Of a stretch of DNA of 64,000 nucleotides, positions 16,839-54,970 are shown one piece after another. Origin of the DNA: an uncultured Bacteroidota bacterium. GTDB lineage: Bacteria; Bacteroidota; Bacteroidia; 2-12-FULL-35-15. The position numbers and the translations under genes were made by a program. The stretch lies in assembly GCA_903847205.1 (NCBI GenBank), contig CAINDA010000064.1, positions 186,001-250,000 on the forward strand, in the 5' to 3' direction. The notes below the pieces were generated by a model that was not told the origin of the DNA, searched no databases, and saw only the letters and a program-made list of their open reading frames with translations. Within the stretch, counting starts at the first letter, position 1; the number at the start of each line of letters is the position of its first letter.

Positions 16839-16883
16839 TTAATCTTACCTTAATGTAAAAGTGAAATTACTAAGATACTTTAG
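16839..16883 (+). promoter_or_regulatory. Candidate Pho-box-like operator and promoter of the first response-regulator gene
   Basis: CTTAAT occurs at 16839 and 16850 with exactly 11 bp between copies (CTTAATCTTACCTTAATGTA). A near-consensus -7 box TACTTTAG sits at 16876-16883, so the last TTAA begins 32 bp before the end of the -7 box. Very similar wording (CCTTAACATAACCTTAATGTA) occurs upstream of the gene at 18292. Function is inferred. Confidence 0.4.
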
Positions 16884-16903: not shown

Positions 16904-17587
16904 ATGGTAAACGCGAATTTTAAAATATTAGTTATAGATACTGATAAAGAACTTCTATCGGCTGTTAAAACAGCTTTGAAAGCAGAAGGGTTCCAGATAA
17001 TTTTATCATCAAACTCGTGCGAAGCAATTCAGCTTGCTGAAGAAGAACAGCCGCAGCTTGTTCTGCTTGACCTATTGATGCCCGATTTAGACGGGATAGA
17101 TATTTGTATTGAGCTAAAGAGAAAACCTCAAATGAGCAGCACAATCATTGTTTTCCATACCGAGAGAGAGGAGGATTATTCCCAAATAGCCGCATTTAAT
17201 GCCGGTGCTGATGATTACATTGTAAAACCTGTTAAAATGCGGGTGTTGGTAAGCAGATTAAAAGCAGTTCTGAAACGCCACCCTAACAATCAGAAACAAA
17301 TTATTAAAAATGATGCGATTGGTTTAATAATTGACCGCGAACGTTACTTGGTTTTTAAAGACGCAAAAGAAATAATTCTGCCCCGTAAAGAATTTGAACT
17401 GCTTTCCCTGCTCTCATCATCACCTCGTAAAGTATTTACCCGAAAGGAAATTTCTCAGATTATATGGGATACGGAATTTGTTAAAAAAAACAGAACTATA
17501 GATGTTCACATTCTTAAAATCCGAGAAAAATTAGGCGCCGATTATATCAAAACAATTAAAGGAATAGGCTACAGCCTGGAGAGTTAA
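16904..17587 (+). CDS. OmpR/PhoB-family response regulator (orphan)
   Basis: 227 residues. The receiver domain (4-125) has ILVIDTDKELL, in which one of the usual paired acidic residues is Thr, the phospho-acceptor Asp in LVLLDLLMPDLDG, Thr in FHTERE and Lys in YIVKPVK. The winged-helix DNA-binding domain (about 135-227) has LPRKEFELLSLLSSSPRKVF and RTIDVHILKIREKLGADYIK. It is a paralogue of the regulator at 31108, sharing the DYSQIAxF and IDRERY stretches. No histidine kinase is adjacent. The promoter carries 11-bp spaced TTAA repeats, which would suit PhoB-like autoregulation. The single-acid pocket may weaken Mg-dependent phosphorylation. Confidence 0.88.
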   Translation: MVNANFKILVIDTDKELLSAVKTALKAEGFQIILSSNSCEAIQLAEEEQPQLVLLDLLMPDLDGIDICIELKRKPQMSSTIIVFHTEREEDYSQIAAFNAGADDYIVKPVKMRVLVSRLKAVLKRHPNNQKQIIKNDAIGLIIDRERYLVFKDAKEIILPRKEFELLSLLSSSPRKVFTRKEISQIIWDTEFVKKNRTIDVHILKIREKLGADYIKTIKGIGYSLES

Positions 17588-18291: not shown

Positions 18292-18615
18292 TTATTTTGA
18301 TTCTAATTGAACAACTATTTCGGAATAGGAAAAAGGCTCAATGTTAACTTTCATTTCATTATAGGAAACAAATGAAATAATTGCTTCCGTTTCTGAGGAT
18401 TTTATAATTGCGGAAAATTTTCCGTTTAAATCTGTATAAATAATTTTATCACCAATTTTAACAACAGCACCGGCAATTTCCTCACCGCTTATTTTGTCGA
18501 TTACTTTACCGGAAATTAATTTTGTACTGGCTTTCTCCTTATTGTTATCGGCATTTTCAGCAAATGCGGTGATTCCAATAATTATTAAACAAAAAATCAA
18601 AACAGCTCTTTTCAT
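18292..18615 (-). CDS. Small exported protein with carboxypeptidase-regulatory-like domain
   Basis: 107 residues: a signal peptide (about 1-20, RAVLIFCLIIIGITAFAE) and one beta-sandwich domain of the CarboxypepD_reg type. The hallmark run is SGKVIDKISGEEIAGAVVKI followed by IIYTDLNGKFSAII. In large proteins this domain precedes TonB receptors; here it stands alone, with no barrel or plug. It could be a periplasmic binding or signalling module. The upstream region holds five TTAA boxes, two pairs of them 11 bp apart, the densest such cluster in the window, so strong regulation is likely if the boxes are functional. Confidence 0.78.
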   Translation of the reverse strand: MKRAVLIFCLIIIGITAFAENADNNKEKASTKLISGKVIDKISGEEIAGAVVKIGDKIIYTDLNGKFSAIIKSSETEAIISFVSYNEMKVNIEPFSYSEIVVQLESK

Positions 18616-18681: not shown

Positions 18682-18731
18682 ATACATTAAGGTTATGTTA
18701 AGGATGCTGGTTCATGTTAAGAAAACCTTAA
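18682..18731 (-). promoter_or_regulatory. Candidate Pho-box-like operator upstream of the CarboxypepD_reg gene
   Basis: On the minus strand TTAA begins at 18731 and 18720 (11 bp apart) and again at 18701 and 18690 (11 bp apart). The second pair reads CCTTAACATAACCTTAATGTA, close to the operator at 16839. A TATAAT-like run follows downstream. Function inferred. Confidence 0.4.
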
Positions 18732-18771: not shown

Positions 18772-19824
18772 CTATATTTTATGACGGGAAATATGAAATG
18801 AATCCTGGTTTTTAAAATCGGGATGAAGAGTTTTTTTCCGACAGTGTTTTGCAATGATCATTTCAATTATCTGTTCTGTAACGTCAGGATAATTAACGGG
18901 TACAGCTTTACCATAAGCAAGCCAGTCCTTTATTATCCAATGATGTTTCTTTTTTAAACTTTTTATCACAGCCACTCCCATTGTTTTTAAAGTTGCAGCA
19001 TTGCACTGCTGCTCATACTGAGCTTTCATAGGAATAACCAAAAGTTTTTTCTTGAGATACAATGCTTCTGCCGGGGTTTCAAATCCTGCACCGCAGAGCA
19101 CACCGGTACTGGATGCAAGACTTTTAATAAATGCTTCATTATTGATGGGCTGAATTGTGACAACACCGCTTTTAGTGGTTTCTTTGCAATGTTTGCTGAA
19201 TACATCCCATTGAACATTTTTAAATTGTTCTAAATTTTTAATAAGACGTTCATCATTATAAGCCGGCAGATATACAGTATAGTGATTTTGTTTAACCGGT
19301 TTTAATTCACGGATTTCTTTTCGGATAACAGGAGTGAAAATATTTTTATCAAAATCAGAAAAATGAAAACCATATTGAGCAGTTGAAGGGGCGTAATGTT
19401 TTAATACTGCTTTTCCTAAAGCATTTTTCTTTTTCGGTTTCGGTGCATTTTTTGAAAGCACTGCACTTTGGTGGCTGAGAGCAATACATTGCAATTTTTT
19501 TTGTTTGCATGCCCATGATGTAATGGGTTCAAAATCGCTGATAATTAAATCGTATTTTTCTAAAGGAACTTTGTCAATATCATGCAGTAACTCTCGCAGA
19601 TCCATTTTCAAATAAGTGCTGACAAAATCAATCCCACCATTTTTTCCGAATACAAAACTCAGCCCTTTGAATTGGTATTTAACAGGAAAGGGCAGGCTGA
19701 CATCTGCCTGCATGCCGCTTACTAAAATATCTACTTCGCCTTTTTTTTGAAGTACGGGAACAATGTCTCTTGCACGGCTCAAATGCCCGTTGCCGGTACC
19801 TTGCACAGCATACAATATTTTCAT
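18772..19824 (-). CDS. GT28/MurG-like glycosyltransferase
   Basis: 350 residues with a GT-B layout. The N-terminal acceptor half starts with YAVQGTGNGHLSRARDI, the G-x-G-G/N-x-G-H loop of MurG, diacylglycerol glucosyltransferases and relatives. The C-terminal half has CGAGFETPAEALYLKKKLLV, the donor-sugar binding motif, followed by PMKAQYEQQCNA. No signal peptide; likely a peripheral inner-membrane enzyme. Its start overlaps the stop of the phosphoesterase gene by four bases (ATGA), so the two are translationally coupled. In bacteria that remodel lipids under phosphate shortage, a PlcP phospholipase works with a diacylglycerol glycosyltransferase (Agt); this pair fits that scheme, though the GT family differs from the one I recall. 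The acceptor is inferred. Confidence 0.75.
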   Translation of the reverse strand: MKILYAVQGTGNGHLSRARDIVPVLQKKGEVDILVSGMQADVSLPFPVKYQFKGLSFVFGKNGGIDFVSTYLKMDLRELLHDIDKVPLEKYDLIISDFEPITSWACKQKKLQCIALSHQSAVLSKNAPKPKKKNALGKAVLKHYAPSTAQYGFHFSDFDKNIFTPVIRKEIRELKPVKQNHYTVYLPAYNDERLIKNLEQFKNVQWDVFSKHCKETTKSGVVTIQPINNEAFIKSLASSTGVLCGAGFETPAEALYLKKKLLVIPMKAQYEQQCNAATLKTMGVAVIKSLKKKHHWIIKDWLAYGKAVPVNYPDVTEQIIEMIIAKHCRKKTLHPDFKNQDSFHISRHKI

Positions 19825-20672
19825 CCTTTTAACATGTTAAACTCCTGAATTAAATTTTCAAACAGCTGTGAGTTATTTAATGACACATGCTGCGGTTCGT
19901 TTAAATCAACCGCTTTTGCAAATTCATCTTCATGATATTTATAGATGCTCCATGCTCCGTTATTATATTCAAGTGCAGTAAGATTTTCAATCCAATCACC
20001 GGAATTTAAATACAGAATAGAACCTTTATCATTTTTCATTTCGCGAATTTCCGGCTGATGAATATGCCCGCATACAACATAATCATAACCGTTTGAAATA
20101 CCAATATCAGCAGCTGTCTGTTCAAAAGCGTTTGCATACTTAACGGCGCTTTTAACACTATTTTTTATTTTTTTTGAGAGTGATATTTTCCCCTTACCTA
20201 ATTTTTGAGAAATAAAATTTACTGCCCGATTGATGAGAATTAACAAATCATATCCCATTGCACCTAATTTTGTAAGCCACTTAGCATGCTGCATTGTTAC
20301 ATCAAATACATCGCCGTGAAAAAGCCAAGCCCGGCGCCCGTCAAGTTTCAATACTACTTTATTTACAATCTTCAGCGAGCCCATTTTAAAACCGACAAAC
20401 CGGCGAAGCATTTCATCGTGGTTGCCGGTTACATAATACACCTTTACATCTTTAGCTATTAATCCCGTAAGATGCTTTATTACCTGCATGTGACTGGAGG
20501 GCCAATAACGTTTACTGAACTGCCAGATGTCAATAATATCACCGTTGAGTACAACCTTTTTAGGTTTTATACTTTTTAAATACTGAAGCAGTTCTTTTGC
20601 ATGACAGCCGTAAGTACCCAAATGTATATCCGATATCACAACCAGTTCTACCTCTCTTTTTTTTGTTTTCAT
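19821..20672 (-). CDS. plcP: PlcP-like calcineurin-fold phosphoesterase (putative phospholipase C)
   Basis: 283 residues from the ATG at 20672; starting at 20717 would add 15 residues overlapping the previous gene. The dinuclear metal motifs are all present: VISDIHLGTYG (D-x-H), LNGDIIDIW (G-D), TGNHDEMLRRF (G-N-H-D), FHGDVFD (His) and CGHIHQPE (G-H-x-H). The stretches YWPSSHMQVIKHL and YLNSGDWIENLTA, and the overall pattern, resemble rhizobial PlcP (SMc00171 type), which cleaves phosphatidylcholine and related lipids during phosphate starvation, more than LpxH. LpxH-type hydrolase remains the main alternative. It lies between a SpoIIE phosphatase and a coupled glycosyltransferase. Confidence 0.7.
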   Translation of the reverse strand: MKTKKREVELVVISDIHLGTYGCHAKELLQYLKSIKPKKVVLNGDIIDIWQFSKRYWPSSHMQVIKHLTGLIAKDVKVYYVTGNHDEMLRRFVGFKMGSLKIVNKVVLKLDGRRAWLFHGDVFDVTMQHAKWLTKLGAMGYDLLILINRAVNFISQKLGKGKISLSKKIKNSVKSAVKYANAFEQTAADIGISNGYDYVVCGHIHQPEIREMKNDKGSILYLNSGDWIENLTALEYNNGAWSIYKYHEDEFAKAVDLNEPQHVSLNNSQLFENLIQEFNMLKG

Positions 20673-20692
20673 AGTTTTTTGTGCAAGCTGAT

Positions 20693-21547
20693 TTACAATC
20701 TTATCCCAAGTACACAAACATCGTCTGTTTGTTTATTGCTGCTTTTCCATTCGTTGAAAATTGATGTTAGTACAGTTTTTTGAACATCAGCTGGAAAAGA
20801 ATATATGTCGTTTAAATGCTCATGTAATTTTTTGATTGTCATTTTTTTATTTTTTTTTCCGCCGAACTGATCTTGAAAACCATCTGAAGTCATATATACC
20901 ATTGAATCTTTAGAAAGTATAATTTTCTGTTCCTCGTAAATTCGATTTTTTTCTATCTGCCATCCGCCCACCGGATAATTATGCCCTTTAATTATTTCTA
21001 TTCCATTTTTATTTACAATAATAATTTTACCTCTTGCGCCAGCAAAACGAAGCTCCCTGGTTTTGCTGTTAAATGCAGCTAATGAAATTTCCATCCAATC
21101 ATTATTCACTTCTTGTTCTGTAAACATGTGAAATGCTTCTATCCATTTCTTATCAATATGTTCCAGCATTCTTCCGAGGTTATCAATGTCCTTCCCAAAA
21201 ACAACATAATTCAAGTAGCTGATGCCAAGAACTGACAACATGGCTCCTGATACCCCATGACCTGTGCAGTCGGCGAGAGCGAAGACCGACCAGTCGTTTT
21301 TTTGAGCTATCCAGTAGAAATCACCTCCTATTATATTCTGCGGCTGATATATTACAAAGTATTCATTGAAGATGCGTTCAAAATGGCGCATTTGCGGAAG
21401 GAGCGCTTGCTGAATAGTTGCGGCATAATTTACGCTGTCGAACATATCTTTATTGATGCCGTAGAGCTGGAGATATTTATTTCGCAGTTCGGAAGAATCT
21501 ATAGAATCAACTCGCTGCATCGGCTCGTCTAAATATTTTGAAATCAT
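20693..21547 (-). CDS. SpoIIE-type PP2C serine phosphatase
   Basis: 284 residues. The catalytic domain (about 65-284) has IIGGDFYWI, ALADCTGHGVSGAMLSVLG and MTSDGFQDQFGG, the Asp-based metal sites of the PP2C/SpoIIE family. The first 60 residues form a short helical lead with no PAS, GAF or receiver domain. The stop is 20 nt before the phosphoesterase start, so phosphatase, PlcP-like enzyme and glycosyltransferase form a three-gene operon. Phosphatases of this type reset anti-sigma antagonists or SiaC-like proteins. A SiaB-SiaC pair is encoded at 54 kb without a linked phosphatase, making this a possible distant partner. Confidence 0.88.
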   Translation of the reverse strand: MISKYLDEPMQRVDSIDSSELRNKYLQLYGINKDMFDSVNYAATIQQALLPQMRHFERIFNEYFVIYQPQNIIGGDFYWIAQKNDWSVFALADCTGHGVSGAMLSVLGISYLNYVVFGKDIDNLGRMLEHIDKKWIEAFHMFTEQEVNNDWMEISLAAFNSKTRELRFAGARGKIIIVNKNGIEIIKGHNYPVGGWQIEKNRIYEEQKIILSKDSMVYMTSDGFQDQFGGKKNKKMTIKKLHEHLNDIYSFPADVQKTVLTSIFNEWKSSNKQTDDVCVLGIRL

Positions 21548-21573: not shown

Positions 21574-21618
21574 CAAAATAAGGCGATGTATATCAATTGT
21601 AGTTTAACTAATGATTAA
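21574..21618 (-). promoter_or_regulatory. Candidate Pho-box-like operator and promoter of the SpoIIE-plcP-glycosyltransferase operon
   Basis: Minus-strand CCTTAATCATTAGTTAAAC has TTAA at 21618 and 21607, exactly 11 bp apart. A near-consensus -7 box TTATTTTG ends at 21574, 33 bp after the second TTAA, as in the TonB-receptor promoter. Function inferred. Confidence 0.4.
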
Positions 21619-21738
21619 GGAATGATTATATATTTTATAGGAAACAGCAGACAGCGGGGATAATTTTTAAAAAAATCATTTGAGTTTAATACTTAAACTA
21701 ACAATTGTCTGCTATGAAAATTAATTATTATTTCAAAG

Positions 21739-27239: not shown

Positions 27240-27644
27240 TGCTGATATGTTTTTTGTTAAAAAAAAATACAGTTTTTTTTAAGGATAAATCCAAATTAAT
27301 AATGCTTGCAATAAAAACAGATTTGAGAATTTTCATCGATTTCTAAAACAATGATTTTAATTTTTTTCCTTTTTTGCAAGATTAATTCCCAAACACCAAT
27401 TAAGTGTTTTCATATTATTAAATAATTGTTAAATAAAATTTTAATTGAAAAAAGAATTGGAAATTTTATTATATGAATCTATCAGTTCCAATTTATTCCA
27501 TAGGAGGGATATATATAGCTTTAAAGCGACAACCATATAAGATATTATACCTTAAATATCCTTAATAATATTTTAATATTCTCTTAAACTTTATTCTCGC
27601 TTAAGATTGCAGTTTTGCACTCGAAAATTTTAAAACCCAAAATC
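27240..27644. other. 405-bp divergent regulatory region
   Basis: This stretch separates the minus-strand aquaporin-arsC operon from the plus-strand TonB receptor. It is very AT-rich with several A and T runs. On the minus strand TTAA begins at 27282 and 27260 (22 bp). On the plus strand a four-copy TTAA array and a -7-like box precede the receptor. No gene or ORF with family resemblance was found. Confidence 0.7.
27552..27617 (+). promoter_or_regulatory. Four-copy TTAA array and -7 box of the TonB receptor gene
   Basis: TTAA begins at 27552, 27562, 27573 and 27584 (spacing 10, 11, 11). CAGTTTTG at 27610-27617 differs from TAnnTTTG by one base and ends 33 bp after the start of the last TTAA. 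This is the longest array in the window. Binding by a PhoB-like regulator is inferred. Confidence 0.45.
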
Positions 27645-30600
27645 ATGAAAAAACTTTATCAACTCGTAATTGCATTATTTTTTATTTTTTCTCAATTTAA
27701 TAAAATTGAAGCTCAGGTAACAAGTTCATCTATTAATGGGAAAATAACCGATGGTAAAGGTGAAACGCTGCCGGGTGTTGCAATTATTGCAATACATGTA
27801 CCCACAGGGTTCAAATATGTTGTTCTGACCGATTTAGATGGGAAATATTTTATCCCAAACATGAATTCAGGCGGACCATATACAGTTAAAACAAGTTTTA
27901 TAGGTTATAAAGAATCTGTAAAAGAAAACATTACTCTCAGCCTTGGTGAAAATCAAAAAATTAATTTTCAACTGCATGAATCCACAACAGATCTTGCTGA
28001 AGTGGTTATTAAGGCAAACTTAGATGACAATAAAACAGGAGCCGGAACAAGAGTAAGCAGTGAACAAATTCAAAGTTTACCCACGCTTTCAAGAAGCATT
28101 ACAGATTTTACAAAGCTGACTCCCCAAAGTTCGAATAACTCTTTTGCGGGCACAAACTTTAGGTATAACAATGTTGCTGTTGATGGAGCTATAAACAATG
28201 ACGCTATTGGATTTAGCCCATCTCTTGGAGGAGTAAGCGGAACATCCAATATGCCGGGAAGCAGCACACGCACAAACCCGATAAGCCTTGATGCTATACA
28301 AGATGTAAGTGTAAGTATTGCTCCCTATGATGTTAAGTTAGGCAATTTTACCGGGGGCAGTATTAATGCAATTACAAAAAGCGGAACAAACCAATTGACA
28401 GCATCAGTATATAGTTTTGGAAGAAGCGCCGCTATAACCGGACCCGATAATGCCGGTGATAAAAGTAAAATGCCAAACAGTTATTCCGACTTTCAAACAG
28501 GCTTCAGCCTAGGACTTCCCATAATTAAAGACAAACTGTTTCTTTTCGCAAATTATGAAAACACAAACAGAACAGAACCTTTATTTTATGGTGCAGATCA
28601 AAACGGTTCGTTTATGACCTCAACCATTGCAAATAGAATTACTGATAGTTTAAAAAGCTCTACGTTTATGCCTAAAAGCGCATACAATCCAACGGGAGTT
28701 TACGATCCTGGAGCCACCGCTGCTTATAATATTTTCTCGAAAAGCAATAAATTTTTTGCCAGAGTGGATTGGAATATAAACAACAGCAACCAACTAAGTA
28801 TTAGAAATAATTATGTAATTTCTTCTTCATCAAATCTTGAGCGTTCAGCCACACAGTTTCAATTCGGGAATTATGATTTTATTCAAAACAACGTTAATAA
28901 TTCGACAGTATTAGAATTAAAAACCCGTCTAAGTCCTAACATTGCCAATAGCTTGATAGGAGGGTTTACAACCATTCATGATTATAGAGATCCGACAGGA
29001 ACCCTGTTTCCTCAAATACAAATTAATAATGTTAATGGAACAGGAACAGTATTATTAGGAAGTAACCGCGAAGCCGGAATTTTTAATATGAAACAGAAAA
29101 CATTTGAGATAACCGACAATATTACCATTTATAAAAGAAAGCAGGTATTTACTTTCGGTACTCATAACGAATTGTATAATATAGGCTATGGTTTTATTAA
29201 TTCATGGAACGGACGAATTGATTATAACAATTTAAATGATTTCTATAATAATGATCCTGCCAGAATAAGGGCTATTTATAACTTAACCGATGATACCAGA
29301 GCAACTAATTATAATAATCCGGTGGCTGCATTTAATGTTTATATGCTCAGCGCCTACGCTCAGGATGAAATAAGTTTACGTGATAATTTAAAAGTTACCG
29401 GAGGTTTAAGGATTGATTATACCGATGTTCCTGCAGCACCAGCAACAAGCAGCTTAGTAACTACTGCTAATATTGATAATAATTATGGAAACACTTATAC
29501 TCATAACCAATTACCTTCTTTAGGAGGTAAAATTTTAGGGCAGCCGCAGTTTTCTCCTCGTTTAGGTTTTAATTGGGATGTTTTATCAAATAAAAAACTG
29601 ATAGTTAGAGGCGGAAGCGGCGTTTTTACAGGAAGAATCCCTTTTGCCTGGCTAGGATATGCATATTACAACAATGGAGTTAATTATGGAGCATTTGATT
29701 ATAAACCCGGAACTCCTGTTAAAATTAACATTCCCACTGATCCTTCTTCTTTCCAAAGTTTTAACACAAACGTTTTATCACAGCCCAACAGAACTGAATT
29801 GGATATAATTGATAAGAATTTTAAGCTTCCGCAGATTTGGAGAAATAATATTGCATTTGATATCATGCTTCCTGGAGATTATAAGCTGACATTAGAAGGA
29901 ATGTATACGCAGACAATCAGCGACGTAATGTTTAAACAAATTAATCTTAAAGATTCTGTTACCTATAATCCTAATGATGTAAATCATCTGCAGCCAATAT
30001 ATATTAAGGGTGGTAACACGGGACAAAGGGTTGATAATAATTTTTCAAGTGTTTACATGATGACCAATACAAACCAAGGCTATCGTTATAGCTTAACCGC
30101 ACAAATTTCAAAACAATATAAATTTGGTTTAAATGTATCGGCTGCCTATAATTACGGCAAATCATACGATATGTCAAATGGCATCAGAAATTCTTATGAG
30201 TCCAATTGGCAGTTAAATCAAGCTTTATCTCCTAATAACCCAGCTTTGGCCTATTCAAACTTCGATATCCGCCATCGTATTGTTGCAACTGCCGGGTATA
30301 AAAAGGAGTGGAATAAAAAGCTGACTTCTTACTTGTCATTTGTTTTCACAGGTCAGTCGGGTACTCCATTTTCATGGACTATGAATAGCAATAAAGTAAC
30401 CAACAACGGTCAGCAGATTGATTTAGCTTATATACCAGCATCGCAAAGCGATATAAATTTAGTTGCTTACAATGATGCTTCCGGCAATGTAGTAACCCCT
30501 CAGCAGCAATGGAGTAATTTAGACAGCTATGTGAACAGTCAAAAAACCTTGAGCGATTCACGTGGCCATTTTACTCAAAGAAATGGGGGAAGAACGCCTT

Positions 30601-30908
30601 GGAACAACAGGCTTGATATGCGTTTTATGCAGGATTTTAACTTTTTCATTAAAGAAAAAAAGCATACAATTCAGCTTACCTGCGATATAATTAACTTTTC
30701 TAACCTGCTGAATAAAACATGGGGTTATGCTTATTTTGTCCCTGACACACAAAATTCTTCGGCATTTTTCGGATTAACTCCTACTGGAACTAAAGGAGCA
30801 AACGGCAATCCGAATTATACTTACACAACACCAACTACAACTCCCTGGTCAATTGATAAATTAAATTCAAGATGGCAGATGCAGATTGGCGCAAGATATA
30901 CTTTCTAG
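27645..30908 (+). CDS. Oar-like TonB-dependent outer-membrane receptor
   Basis: 1087 residues from the ATG at 27645; an upstream TTG at 27615 overlaps the -7 box and is not credible. A signal peptide (MKKLYQLVIALFFIFSQF) ends near 24. A CarboxypepD_reg domain (about 27-110: INGKITDGKGETLPGVAIIA, YFIPNMNSGGPYTVKTSFIG) is followed by a plug domain (about 125-260, with VSSEQIQSLPTLSRSITDFT and SLDAIQDVSVSIAPYDVKLG) and a beta-barrel ending in the aromatic WQMQIGARYTF. The Oar-type plug and barrel differ from SusC, and no SusD lipoprotein follows. It imports an unknown ligand using TonB energy. The array of TTAA repeats in its promoter suggests phosphate-linked control. Confidence 0.88.
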   Translation: MKKLYQLVIALFFIFSQFNKIEAQVTSSSINGKITDGKGETLPGVAIIAIHVPTGFKYVVLTDLDGKYFIPNMNSGGPYTVKTSFIGYKESVKENITLSLGENQKINFQLHESTTDLAEVVIKANLDDNKTGAGTRVSSEQIQSLPTLSRSITDFTKLTPQSSNNSFAGTNFRYNNVAVDGAINNDAIGFSPSLGGVSGTSNMPGSSTRTNPISLDAIQDVSVSIAPYDVKLGNFTGGSINAITKSGTNQLTASVYSFGRSAAITGPDNAGDKSKMPNSYSDFQTGFSLGLPIIKDKLFLFANYENTNRTEPLFYGADQNGSFMTSTIANRITDSLKSSTFMPKSAYNPTGVYDPGATAAYNIFSKSNKFFARVDWNINNSNQLSIRNNYVISSSSNLERSATQFQFGNYDFIQNNVNNSTVLELKTRLSPNIANSLIGGFTTIHDYRDPTGTLFPQIQINNVNGTGTVLLGSNREAGIFNMKQKTFEITDNITIYKRKQVFTFGTHNELYNIGYGFINSWNGRIDYNNLNDFYNNDPARIRAIYNLTDDTRATNYNNPVAAFNVYMLSAYAQDEISLRDNLKVTGGLRIDYTDVPAAPATSSLVTTANIDNNYGNTYTHNQLPSLGGKILGQPQFSPRLGFNWDVLSNKKLIVRGGSGVFTGRIPFAWLGYAYYNNGVNYGAFDYKPGTPVKINIPTDPSSFQSFNTNVLSQPNRTELDIIDKNFKLPQIWRNNIAFDIMLPGDYKLTLEGMYTQTISDVMFKQINLKDSVTYNPNDVNHLQPIYIKGGNTGQRVDNNFSSVYMMTNTNQGYRYSLTAQISKQYKFGLNVSAAYNYGKSYDMSNGIRNSYESNWQLNQALSPNNPALAYSNFDIRHRIVATAGYKKEWNKKLTSYLSFVFTGQSGTPFSWTMNSNKVTNNGQQIDLAYIPASQSDINLVAYNDASGNVVTPQQQWSNLDSYVNSQKTLSDSRGHFTQRNGGRTPWNNRLDMRFMQDFNFFIKEKKHTIQLTCDIINFSNLLNKTWGYAYFVPDTQNSSAFFGLTPTGTKGANGNPNYTYTTPTTTPWSIDKLNSRWQMQIGARYTF

Positions 30909-31029: not shown

Positions 31030-31056
31030 TTAATATTAAATTAATCGTGATTTAAC
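31030..31056 (+). promoter_or_regulatory. Triple TTAA repeat upstream of the second response regulator
   Basis: TTAA begins at 31030, 31041 and 31052, exactly 11 bp apart each time (TTAATATTAAATTAATCGTG, then TTTAAC). It starts immediately after the receptor's terminator and ends 52 nt before the chosen start codon. A weak -7-like GAAATTTA lies at the offset seen in the other promoters (31078-31085). Confidence 0.45.
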
Positions 31057-31107
31057 ATTGCGTATATGCATAATAGAGAAATTTACGCTGAATTAAAATT
31101 TAGAATT

Positions 31108-31794
31108 ATGAATAACAGTGAACACAAAATATTATTAGTTGATGATGAGCCGGATATTTTGGAATTCCTTAGTTACAATTTAAAGAAAGAAGGTTATGCT
31201 GTTTTTACTGCCAATAATGGAAAAGAAGCAATAGCTGCAGCCAAAAGGGAAAAACCTGATCTGATTGTTCTGGATGTGATGATGCCGGATATGGATGGTA
31301 TTGAAACCTGCAGGGAGATTCGTGAAATACCTGAATTAAAAGATATAGTAATTGCCTTTTTAACTGCGCGAAGCGAGGATTACTCGCAGATTGCAGGTTT
31401 TGATGTAGGGGCAGATGATTATATTAATAAGCCTATTAAACCCCGCGTTTTAATCAGTCGTATTAAAGCGCTTTTAAGACGCAGCGGAAATTTAGAACCC
31501 AAACATACAGAAACCGAAGATTTAGGTGGAATTAAAATTGACCGCGAACGCTACGTAGTAATTAAAGACGGCATTGATATTAACCTTCCGAAAAAAGAAT
31601 TTGAATTAATTGCTCTGCTTGCTTCAAAGCCTGGGAAAGTGTTTACACGCGATGTGATTTTGGACAAAATTTGGGGAGGCGATGTAATAGTAGGCGACAG
31701 AACCATAGATGTGCATGTCCGTAAACTGCGCGAAAAATTAGGAGAGGATTTAATTAAAACAATAAAAGGCATTGGTTATAAATTTGAATTTTAA
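31108..31794 (+). CDS. OmpR/PhoB-family response regulator
   Basis: 228 residues from the ATG at 31108; the in-frame ATG at 31066 would add 14 residues before the receiver and lies too close to the repeats. The receiver has the full phosphorylation set: LLVDDEPDIL, LIVLDVMMPDMDG, Thr in FLTARSED and Lys in YINKPIK. The winged-helix domain (about 130-228) has LPKKEFELIALLASKPGKVF and RTIDVHVRKLREKLGEDLIK. It resembles KdpE/PhoB-type regulators of Bacteroidota. No histidine kinase is adjacent. Phosphate uptake genes follow 400 nt downstream and the upstream triple repeat suits PhoB autoregulation. Of the two regulators in the window this one looks fully phosphorylatable. Confidence 0.9.
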   Translation: MNNSEHKILLVDDEPDILEFLSYNLKKEGYAVFTANNGKEAIAAAKREKPDLIVLDVMMPDMDGIETCREIREIPELKDIVIAFLTARSEDYSQIAGFDVGADDYINKPIKPRVLISRIKALLRRSGNLEPKHTETEDLGGIKIDRERYVVIKDGIDINLPKKEFELIALLASKPGKVFTRDVILDKIWGGDVIVGDRTIDVHVRKLREKLGEDLIKTIKGIGYKFEF

Positions 31795-32194
31795 AAATAC
31801 TATATATTTTGCTATCACCAAAGCAGACTGCCTTCTGGGTAGAATCTTTAACACCTTCCACTTTCCCGCCATTCAATTTTATGCTCGGGTTGAGGCATTC
31901 CTTTTTGCAAAAACCTCTTCCTCAATAGCTCCTTTTTCGGTAAGATCAGTGGAAAACTTCCGGTTTCATCAAACAGAACCTTTTTTCAAAATAAAAAGCT
32001 CATTGCTGTTAATAATATTTTAACATAAGTATAATTAATAATAAACATGCGATGCTGTTTTTTAGGTAGTTTTGCAACATTAATCCCTTTAAATTCGAAT
32101 CACTAAAAAAATTAATTGTTTTGTTTTTCAGGTTCTCTGGAATATAATCTGCAATAAATTTTGAAACAAATAAATAAATTTAAAATCAATAAAA
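31795..32194. other. 400-bp region: possible gene remnant plus phoU-pit promoter
   Basis: 31800-31990 is less AT-rich than its flanks. On the minus strand it reads as a short open stretch (VLFDETGSFPLILPKKELLR onward, about 45 codons) ending in a stop, with a second coherent stretch in another frame. This could be a decayed gene, but I cannot identify it. The rest holds the candidate operator and promoter of the phosphate genes. Confidence 0.4.
32009..32074 (+). promoter_or_regulatory. Candidate Pho-box-like operator and promoter of phoU-like/pit
   Basis: TTAA begins at 32009 and 32020 (11 bp); the next two 11-bp positions carry degenerate ATAAT and TAAAC. TAGTTTTG at 32067-32074 is a perfect -7 box, ending 32 bp after the last phased position. 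Function inferred. Confidence 0.4.
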
Positions 32195-32839
32195 ATGGCA
32201 TTTAACATCTTTCAATTTTTCCAGCCAAAAGACAAAATATTTTATGTGCTTTTCGAAAAAGCATCTGCTAATGTAGTGGCCATTTCAAAAGCACTTGTAG
32301 AAATGGTAACAACAGTTTCCTTAGACCGCAGAAGAGAATTGATCCGTGAAATTGAGCGTTTAGAACATGTCGGCGACAACATCACTCATGAAACTTTTCA
32401 TGAATTAAGTGCAAATTTTATTACTCCTTTCGACAGAGAAGATATCCACGCTTTAATTTCGGCTATTGACGATATCGCTGATTATGTGCACGGCTCCTCA
32501 AAACGCATTGAGTTATATAAAGTTGAAACCATGACTCCTGCAATTATTAAACTTGCAGAATTAATTGAAAAATCTGCTGATGAATTGTATAATGCAGTAT
32601 GTGAGTTAAAAAACATGAAAAATATTAATAAGATAAAAGAAGCCTGCGTCCGCATAAACAGTATTGAAAATCATGCTGATGATATTTTTGATTCTGCAAT
32701 TGCAAAACTTTTTGAAGAAGAAAAAAATGCTATTGAAATAATAAAAATGAAAGAAGTTCTTTTAGCATTGGAAACAGCAACCGATATGTGTGAAGACGCA
32801 GCAAATGTTATTGAATCCATTTTGGTTAAAAATGCTTAG
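32195..32839 (+). CDS. PhoU-like DUF47 accessory protein of Pit transporter
   Basis: 214 residues, all helical, with the DUF47 pattern: AISKALVEMVTTVSLDRRRE, a metal-binding-type ELSANFITPFDREDIHALIS near 69, IDDIADYVHGSSKRIE near 90, and the C-terminal DMCEDAANVIESILVKNA. These E-x3-D motifs resemble the iron-binding clusters of PhoU. Proteins of this family lie next to Pit phosphate transporters and modulate uptake. Here it precedes pit by 42 nt in one operon. The metal-binding Asp/Glu are intact. It is a soluble, probably inner-membrane-associated protein. Confidence 0.92.
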   Translation: MAFNIFQFFQPKDKIFYVLFEKASANVVAISKALVEMVTTVSLDRRRELIREIERLEHVGDNITHETFHELSANFITPFDREDIHALISAIDDIADYVHGSSKRIELYKVETMTPAIIKLAELIEKSADELYNAVCELKNMKNINKIKEACVRINSIENHADDIFDSAIAKLFEEEKNAIEIIKMKEVLLALETATDMCEDAANVIESILVKNA

Positions 32840-32881: not shown

Positions 32882-33949
32882 ATGACAATACTGATTATAA
32901 TAATTGTTCTTGCGCTTGTTTTTGACCTCATCAATGGTTTCCATGATGCAGCAAACTCCATTACAAACATTGTATCTACAAAAGTTCTTACACCATTTCA
33001 AGCTGTAGTTTGGGCCGCTTTTTTTAATGTAGTAGCTTTTTTAATTTTTGATTTGAACATTGCCAACACAATCGCCAAAATCGTTAATAACGATGTTATT
33101 AATTTTACTGTAATAGCTGCGGCTTTAGTTTCGGCAATTATATGGAACCTCGTAACCTGGTGGTCGGGAATCCCTTCGAGTTCTTCACATACATTGATCG
33201 GCGGACTTGCAGGTGCTGCTATAGCATGTGCTGGCTGGGGCGTTGTGAACCAGGAAAAAATATTTAAAACATTTGCATTCATTTTCCTCGCTCCCGTAAT
33301 AGGTTTAATAATAGCAGCTGTTATCAATCTTATTATTATTAACATCAGCAAAAAAGCGCATCCGGCTAAAGCCACACGCTGGTTTAAGCGGCTTCAGTTA
33401 GTTTCAGCAGGTTTGTTCAGTATCGGGCATGGAGGCAATGACGCACAAAAGGTGATGGGTGTGATCGCAGCAGCTTTAATGGTATTCATGGCGCAGTTGA
33501 AAGCAAAAGGTTTGGAGATTCCGGGCTGGGCAAACATTGTACAGAAAATGGATCCTTTAACACATAAAATGTCAATTGACGGCAGCCTGTTTCCTGTTTG
33601 GATACCAATAGCCTGCTACACTGCGATTGGGTGCGGCACTATGATGGGCGGCTGGAAAATTGTAAAAACAATGGGAACAAAAATTACTAAAATCACTCCT
33701 ATTGAAGGTGTAAGTGCTGATACAGCAGGTGCAATTACACTTTTTCTTACCGAAAGATTAGGGATTCCAGTTAGTACCACTCACACCATTACCGGCTCTA
33801 TTATCGGGGTGGGTGTTGCAAAACGTGTATCGGCAGTAAAATGGGGCATTACGTATAGTTTATTATGGGCCTGGATATTAACTATTCCTATCAGTGCTTT
33901 GATCGGCGCCCTGCTGTTTTGGCTGTTCGATTTTATCGGTTTAAAATAA
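32882..33949 (+). CDS. pit: Low-affinity inorganic phosphate transporter (Pit)
   Basis: 355 residues, about ten membrane segments. The duplicated PiT signature is intact: DLINGFHDAANSITNIVSTK near 15 with GIPSSSSHTLIGGLAGAA near 95, and SIGHGGNDAQKVMGVIAAAL near 180 with GIPVSTTHTITGSIIGVGVA near 293. It takes up metal-phosphate complexes driven by protons. It is co-transcribed with the DUF47 protein. Pit carriers also admit arsenate, giving a link to arsC and the aquaporin 6 kb away. A short 25-nt gap separates it from the convergent acpS gene. Confidence 0.95.
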   Translation: MTILIIIIVLALVFDLINGFHDAANSITNIVSTKVLTPFQAVVWAAFFNVVAFLIFDLNIANTIAKIVNNDVINFTVIAAALVSAIIWNLVTWWSGIPSSSSHTLIGGLAGAAIACAGWGVVNQEKIFKTFAFIFLAPVIGLIIAAVINLIIINISKKAHPAKATRWFKRLQLVSAGLFSIGHGGNDAQKVMGVIAAALMVFMAQLKAKGLEIPGWANIVQKMDPLTHKMSIDGSLFPVWIPIACYTAIGCGTMMGGWKIVKTMGTKITKITPIEGVSADTAGAITLFLTERLGIPVSTTHTITGSIIGVGVAKRVSAVKWGITYSLLWAWILTIPISALIGALLFWLFDFIGLK

Positions 33950-54033: not shown

Positions 54034-54414
54034 TTATTCAACAACCTGTACCATTTTAAACGGCACATTAATGATTGCCTGATAATCTTCGCCTGCCTCC
54101 AACATGTCTTCATCATCTTCTTCGTAATACCAGTTAATAAGTACTTTGCTTCCGCTTTTGTTGATTGCTTCAAGTTTTTTAAATACATCCAAAATACATT
54201 TTGAAGAACTTGTATTAAAATATTCCAGCTGAATGTTTACATTAGTTGCTGCTTCGGGCTTAGCGGCATACTTTTCTAACAAATCTACAAGCGGTTTGTA
54301 GAACTCAATAGAGTTTTCAGGAATTGAACGTCCTTTAATCTCTAAAAAACCTTTACCTGTTTCAAATGTCACGGTCGGCGTTTTTGGTGTTCCTTCAATT
54401 AATATTGTTTCCAT
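54034..54414 (-). CDS. siaC: SiaC-family (DUF1987) regulatory phosphoprotein
   Basis: 126 residues. TLIEGTPKTPTVTFETGKG at the start, EIKGRSIPENSIEFYKPLVD near 26, and LEYFNTSSSKCILDVFKKLE near 63 form the DUF1987 pattern; the T/S-rich NTSSSK loop carries the residue phosphorylated in Pseudomonas SiaC. LINWYYEEDDEDMLEAGEDY follows. In Pseudomonas SiaC is phosphorylated by SiaB, dephosphorylated by SiaA, and activates the diguanylate cyclase SiaD. Here only SiaB is adjacent, 10 nt upstream; no GGDEF gene is in the window, so the output must differ or lie elsewhere. Confidence 0.85.
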   Translation of the reverse strand: METILIEGTPKTPTVTFETGKGFLEIKGRSIPENSIEFYKPLVDLLEKYAAKPEAATNVNIQLEYFNTSSSKCILDVFKKLEAINKSGSKVLINWYYEEDDEDMLEAGEDYQAIINVPFKMVQVVE

Positions 54415-54424
54415 ATGCTTTTGT

Positions 54425-54970
54425 TTATTGAGAAATTTTAATATTTAAACTAAAAAAAGAATATTTTTCGTCAACAGCAGTAAACTCAAAATTAAGTTTC
54501 TCTCCGGTTTTCCTTGCAATGTCAATCATCCCTAATCCTCCTCCGCCTTTTATCGACATTTCACCATTATTTAAAACTGCTTTATAGTATTCCTTTAATT
54601 CTTCTTTTGAAAGTACGTTAATATCATCTAACAATTTTTTCAAACCTGGAATATTTTCATTCCTGATATAATTGCCGGTAATAATGCTGTATCCCACATC
54701 CATTTTCCCAATCATAAAAATTGCTGAACGAATTTTGTCTTCCTGGTCTGGTGTCAGCGTATCCATGTGATGATACAGGTTTTGGAGACATTCAACCAAT
54801 ACATTGTAAACTTTCTTTTTAACTTTGGGCTCCTCTTGCCAGTTATCGAGCTTAGACTCCATAATCTGCAAAATAGATGTAAGTAAATCCGATGTAATAT
54901 CTCCTTTAAAAGAGAGCATAATATTATTCCGCTCCATTTTATCGTAGAAATCGTATATATCAATCACCAT
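54425..54970 (-). CDS. siaB: SiaB-family (DUF6272) protein kinase
   Basis: 181 residues. A divergent GHKL/anti-sigma-like kinase fold: YNVLVECLQNLYHHMDTLTP near 64 has the N-box-like E-x-x-x-N, and SIKGGGGLGMIDIARKTGE near 139 supplies the Gly-rich ATP lid. It phosphorylates SiaC on Ser/Thr and so inactivates it. It precedes siaC by 10 nt. The usual neighbour SiaA (a membrane SpoIIE phosphatase) is absent; the soluble SpoIIE phosphatase at 20693 is a distant candidate. Confidence 0.82.
   Translation of the reverse strand: MVIDIYDFYDKMERNNIMLSFKGDITSDLLTSILQIMESKLDNWQEEPKVKKKVYNVLVECLQNLYHHMDTLTPDQEDKIRSAIFMIGKMDVGYSIITGNYIRNENIPGLKKLLDDINVLSKEELKEYYKAVLNNGEMSIKGGGGLGMIDIARKTGEKLNFEFTAVDEKYSFFSLNIKISQ

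Follow-up and report, generated by a model that had tools for sequence, protein, structure and literature searches.

A probable phosphate-starvation operon for membrane lipid remodelling, headed by a SpoIIE phosphatase gene, in a Bacteroidota genome

Does a tightly packed cluster of a SpoIIE/PP2C phosphatase, a metallophosphoesterase and a glycosyltransferase (GT) serve the remodelling of membrane lipids under phosphate shortage, or does it belong to lipid A and envelope synthesis? The cluster lies in a 64,000-nucleotide stretch of DNA (C64:186001-250000 of a 5.5-Mb genome), referred to here as the window, and the close relatives retrieved by name are Bacteroidota throughout. The three genes probably constitute a Pho-type operon for lipid remodelling under phosphate starvation. 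Under phosphate shortage, binding of a PhoB-family regulator to the 11-bp TTAA repeats 5' of position 21547 would be expected to switch on SpoIIE-plcP-GT, presumably as one transcript. By their predicted activities, PlcP would strip the head groups from phospholipids, giving diacylglycerol and a released phosphate ester, and the GT would add a sugar to diacylglycerol, its presumed acceptor, to form a phosphorus-free glycolipid. This reading is well supported by comparison of sequences, namely the grouping with PlcP, the plcP-GT pair, the adjacency to pst in sister genomes, a common promoter geometry and a separate LpxH. PlcP-GT lipid remodelling itself is already known; the layout in Bacteroidota, the deduced promoter and the apparent capture of a SpoIIE gene are new.

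A check of the open reading frames in the window finds all three genes to be real, closely packed and on the minus strand (Table 1). The stated coordinates of the frames stand, with one correction to the start of the phosphoesterase, whose longer frame opens at 20717. Homologues begin at the in-frame ATG at 20672 (MKTKKREV...) and the start at 20717 is absent from relatives, so 20 nt separate the PP2C gene from the phosphoesterase gene, which in turn overlaps the GT gene by 4 nt (ATGA). Anti-phage models gave no match.

Table 1. Positions of the cluster and of phosphate-related features in the window
Feature	Position	Strand	Remarks
GT-B glycosyltransferase, predicted lipid glycosyltransferase	18772..19824	-	PF13528 136 bits, E 1.7e-39; near TIGR00661
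PlcP-type metallophosphoesterase (predicted phospholipase C)	19821..20672	-	calcineurin-like; 283 aa from conserved ATG; PF12850/PF00149
SpoIIE/PP2C-type serine/threonine phosphatase, first gene	20693..21547	-	284 aa, soluble, no sensor domain; PF07228 49 bits, E 9e-13
Candidate Pho-type promoter, 5' of SpoIIE gene	21574..21628	-	11-bp nTAA repeats and Bacteroidota -7 element
OmpR/PhoB-family response regulator	16904..17587	+	TTAA-N7-TTAA at 16839
Small CarboxypepD_reg-like protein, conserved neighbour	18292..18615	-	TTAA-N7-TTAA at 18687 and 18717
Second exact match to the Pho-type promoter	27563..27617	+	5' of outer-membrane protein gene 27615-30908 (CarboxypepD_reg and beta-barrel)
PhoB-like response regulator	31066..31794	+	TIGR02154 222 bits, cut-off 296; TTAA-N7-TTAA at 31030 and 31041
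DUF47 (PhoU_div)	32195-32839	+	TTAA-N7-TTAA at 32009, ahead of DUF47-PitA
PitA-type phosphate transporter	32882-33949	+	after DUF47 gene

The phosphoesterase is 32% identical to PlcP of Sinorhizobium (S.) meliloti and, in a search against plasmid records, 40% identical to PA3219, the PlcP of Pseudomonas aeruginosa. The S. meliloti match adjoins acyl-homoserine-lactone synthase and LuxR genes (sinR/sinI-type), the known PlcP site. By synteny (azoR3...cyaB neighbourhood), the P. aeruginosa match is the plcP-agt1 locus PA3219-PA3218, whose deletion mutants lose their glycolipids under phosphate stress (PMC8528852). The metal-binding motifs SD.HLG, GDIID, GNHDE, HGD and CGHIH are intact in the window protein and common to both of these PlcP proteins. 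In a tree of 60 rows, the window protein falls inside PlcP (50 rows) and apart from LpxH (10 rows) with support of 100/98. The LpxH group includes the genome's own LpxH-type protein on contig C24, a Bacteroidota LpxH orthologue that is only 24% identical to the window phosphoesterase. The preliminary description had likened the enzyme to PlcP; the tree bears this out, as the protein does not group with UDP-diacylglucosamine hydrolases and a distinct LpxH is encoded elsewhere, and its membership of the PlcP group is supported by these comparisons. It is very improbable, and already disfavoured, that the enzyme is an LpxH-type UDP-2,3-diacylglucosamine hydrolase of lipid A synthesis with the GT acting in envelope glycan synthesis: LpxH has the same fold and metallophosphoesterase motifs, NCBI labels the homologues UDP-2,3-diacylglucosamine diphosphatase and the closest solved structures in both sequence and fold are LpxH, but the LpxH models score far under their cut-offs (43.6 bits against 190.35, and 57.8 against 134), the clades are separate and an LpxH orthologue is encoded elsewhere in the genome. 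LpxH is the expected best PDB match, because the PDB matches included no PlcP structure, and a Foldseek search with the predicted phosphoesterase structure (pLDDT 79) does not separate LpxH from PlcP. A GNRD-versus-GNHD motif was dropped as a marker for the two families, since Bacteroidota LpxH-like proteins also have GNHD. Bacteroidota plcP proteins have been hidden because public annotation names them as lipid A enzymes.

The GT belongs to the PF13528 family, with PF04101 under cut-off, and falls just outside TIGR00661 (MJ1255/VC2487 glycosyltransferase), matching nearly the full model at 183.4 bits (cut-off 195.9). Its AlphaFold model (pLDDT 89) matches MurG/UGT-like structures in Foldseek. 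The GT4 domains PF13439 and PF13692 of the Agt type are absent from it, whereas P. aeruginosa Agt1 matches GT4 families; the Bacteroidota pair thus uses a different GT family for the same presumed step. The PlcP-Agt lipid renovation system (P. aeruginosa, Phaeobacter and SAR11; PMC8528852, PMC4796936) has, as here, a PlcP-type phosphoesterase immediately followed by a GT under a Pho-type promoter. In contrast, the GT of the window is MurG/UGT-like rather than a GT4 Agt, a GH1 glycosidase is the third gene in relatives, SpoIIE is the first gene in the window, and the Pho box and -7 element differ.

The plcP-GT pair is widely conserved. Within the genus, 14 of the 15 genomes that carry the phosphoesterase have the GT gene immediately 3' of it. 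Among 80 named Bacteroidota loci, the GT gene lies directly downstream (at most 217 nt away) in 60 and farther away or inverted in two; none is nearby in the other 18, mainly Flavobacteriaceae. This conserved pairing, together with the fold, agrees with the earlier suggestion that the coupled GT builds a glycolipid from diacylglycerol, which is its predicted role. Of these 15 genomes of the genus, 13 have a GH1 gene behind the GT gene (for example L059 6557-7936), the exceptions being the window and its closest relative G023; GH1 also occurs at 22 of the 80 named loci. Its product possibly functions in glycolipid turnover or transglycosylation, and a literature search on GH1 or SFR2 with glycolipids found nothing relevant. 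The genome's own GH1 protein (contig C49) was rejected as the linked orthologue, being diverged (52-58%) with a signal-like N-terminus. In L247, L248, L059, L060 and L066, plcP is preceded by a short conserved ORF (about 40 aa; MKTxLFWFxxxxxRVFMKQLxAxYSPFKxN...) whose end is 3-12 nt away, and L056, L091 and L098 have a similar version there; the window lacks it.

A second possibility is that the substrate of this PlcP-fold lipase belongs to a different class of lipids. It might, for instance, cleave phosphoethanolamine or phosphoglycerol off sphingolipids or ceramides, and the GT would then form a glycosyl-ceramide. Bacteroidota are known for sphingolipids, and genes labelled 'ceramide glucosyltransferase' adjoin related alphaproteobacterial genes. 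Moreover, the Bacteroidota PlcP clade sits on a long stem (1.51) in the tree; because of this stem and the 32-40% identity to tested PlcP proteins, the substrate could differ or have drifted. Against this, the plcP-GT operon of G050 has a diacylglycerol kinase (DAGK) gene in third place instead of GH1, which fits diacylglycerol as the intermediate, and many carriers are not known as sphingolipid producers. Action on such another lipid class is quite improbable, and diacylglycerol is preferred as the acceptor.

Flavobacterium johnsoniae, of the same phylum, links both enzyme types to phosphate. Its PlcP, Fjoh_4577, is strongly induced by phosphate depletion (log2 8.6), as is the GT Fjoh_0541, which lies in the phoBR operon and is annotated as pf04101 (PMC8115612). 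Unlike the window, its plcP is a lone gene, the GT gene is elsewhere and SpoIIE is missing. The Bacteroidota plcP clade is present in 23 of 26 Flavobacterium genomes, always as a single gene apart from one case in which it is split between contigs; Fjoh_4577 is very likely orthologous on the strength of this single-copy presence at genus level. The flavobacterium Dokdonia MED134 also exchanges lipids on phosphorus starvation, but for aminolipids (PMC4796936). The comparison provides testable genomic evidence for a dedicated plcP-GT lipid-remodelling unit, frequently with a glycosidase, in much of the Bacteroidota (Flavobacteria, Sphingobacteria, Chitinophagales and Cytophagales).

The surroundings of the cluster also point to phosphate. 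In the sister genomes G006 and G024, 9-11 kb separate the plcP cluster from a porin-pstSCAB-phoU operon, and an orthologue (~72% identical) of the regulator at 16904 lies in between. In G027, plcP and porin-pst are transcribed divergently, 1.1 kb apart; the pst genes of these genomes score above curated cut-offs. No pst operon is recognisable in the 5.5-Mb genome studied here, whereas the sister genomes have one. The phosphate genes of the window are the 16904 regulator, the PhoB-like regulator at 31066, DUF47 and PitA, with DUF47-PitA as the only transport unit.

The promoter of the cluster reads ATAATCATTCC-TTAATCATTAG-TTAAACTACAA-16 nt-TATTTTG, 5' of 21547, and the deduced geometry is three 11-bp nTAA repeats, a spacer of 15-16 nt and TAn(n)TTTG. 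The first repeat lies exactly 48 nt ahead of the -7 element in five pst and eight plcP promoters of sister genomes, and this spacing from first repeat to TTTG recurs in the SpoIIE promoters of both the window and G023; these are best-of-scan alignments, and 12 of 199 other genes reached such scores, mostly further phosphate genes or cluster neighbours. TTAA pairs peak at 11-bp spacing upstream of pst and plcP-cluster genes (20 versus about 3 for other spacings). At the 75 named plcP loci, TTAA outranks every other of the 256 tetramers at spacing 11, and the repeat is enriched 5' of plcP, at 25/75 compared to 54/680 other genes (p 8e-9, relatedness ignored). In Flavobacterium upstream regions, the repeat is weak (5/20) and has no spacing peak. 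Of the 11 intergenic TTAA-N7-TTAA sites in the window, 10 are confined to the stretch from 16.7 to 32.2 kb, against 0.8 expected by shuffling; they precede both regulators, SpoIIE, DUF47-PitA and the genes for the CarboxypepD_reg and outer-membrane proteins. The exact TAA...TTTG pattern has four matches in the 5.5-Mb genome, two of them in the window, and one in the reverse control; the four precede SpoIIE, the outer-membrane protein at 27615 and a lamin-tail-like protein on contig C61, or lie at one site on C44. The promoter is thus a supported candidate for a Pho-type element with PhoB-type 11-bp direct repeats common to pst, and the Pho box proposed earlier gains from both pst synteny and the geometry matching the pst and plcP promoters of sister genomes. 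A concrete phosphate promoter of Bacteroidota can be deduced from this, with three 11-bp TTAA repeats at a fixed distance to TAnnTTTG, of which a literature search found no description. The C61 match (L279 1501-1555; C61:38870) is 5' of a secreted protein resembling the lamin-tail type. Lamin-tail nucleases of F. johnsoniae are phosphate-depletion-induced.

The role of the SpoIIE phosphatase is less settled. Its motifs GGDFYW, ADCTGHG, TSDGFQDQ and DDVCVLG are intact and PF07228 is over cut-off. It is homologous to SiaA of the P. aeruginosa SiaABCD system in the C-terminal phosphatase domain only (141 bits; cut-off of 700 not reached). In contrast to SiaA, it has neither a membrane sensor part nor adjacent siaBCD genes, and a SiaBC-like pair is found 33 kb away. 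That SpoIIE stands beside plcP through an accident of rearrangement is a serious possibility, somewhat short of an even chance. The 5.5-Mb genome has 87 SpoIIE matches; most of the genus shares this unusually strong expansion, and adjacency alone means little because each genome holds dozens of such genes. SpoIIE is near plcP at none of the 80 named loci, and the window genome is the sole instance among all sampled loci with SpoIIE as the first gene of a plcP operon, which agrees with its description as unusual. In G023, an 81% identical SpoIIE gene adjoins marC, as in the window, while plcP is on a separate contig with a short SpoIIE-like fragment ahead.

The promoter evidence speaks against an accident. 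The window SpoIIE belongs to a tight five-member clade (support 100/100), of which four members (window, G023, G050 and G034) have TTAA-N7-TTAA within 250 nt upstream, a feature that none of 12 other SpoIIE genes has. In G004, the remaining member abuts plcP-GT-GH1, the G050 member is 3.7 kb from the plcP-GT-DAGK operon, and the G023 promoter has pst-like geometry although no plcP lies behind it. The repeats of four members and the position of the fifth suggest that SpoIIE is a phosphate-starvation gene. It was probably such a gene in its own right, which in this lineage came to head the plcP operon, and it is most likely a Pho-induced signalling output; any tuning or control of lipid remodelling by it is a guess. 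The preliminary description had read its position as suggesting protein-phosphorylation control of lipid renovation, which stays a hypothesis; the linkage is lineage-specific, and the evidence makes the phosphatase only a likely member of the Pho regulon. A literature search on SpoIIE with phosphate starvation found nothing relevant. It is rather unlikely, but conceivable, that a starvation-induced SpoIIE is wired into the operon and ties the exchange of membrane lipids to protein phosphorylation by way of a phosphoprotein switch, for example one with a partner of SiaBC or STAS type.

The SpoIIE genes facing GH1 in G006, G011, G025 and G033 are of another clade and lend no support to linkage of the window phosphatase. 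The G050 gene (L195 2879-3733) is 75-79% identical to the window SpoIIE and comes from another family, so horizontal transfer is possible. The genome encodes eight SiaC homologues, the best of which, at 54034 of the window, is beside a probable SiaB-like kinase gene. This SiaBC-like pair (54034-54970) has no SiaA adjacent and is a candidate partner of the orphan SpoIIE phosphatase.
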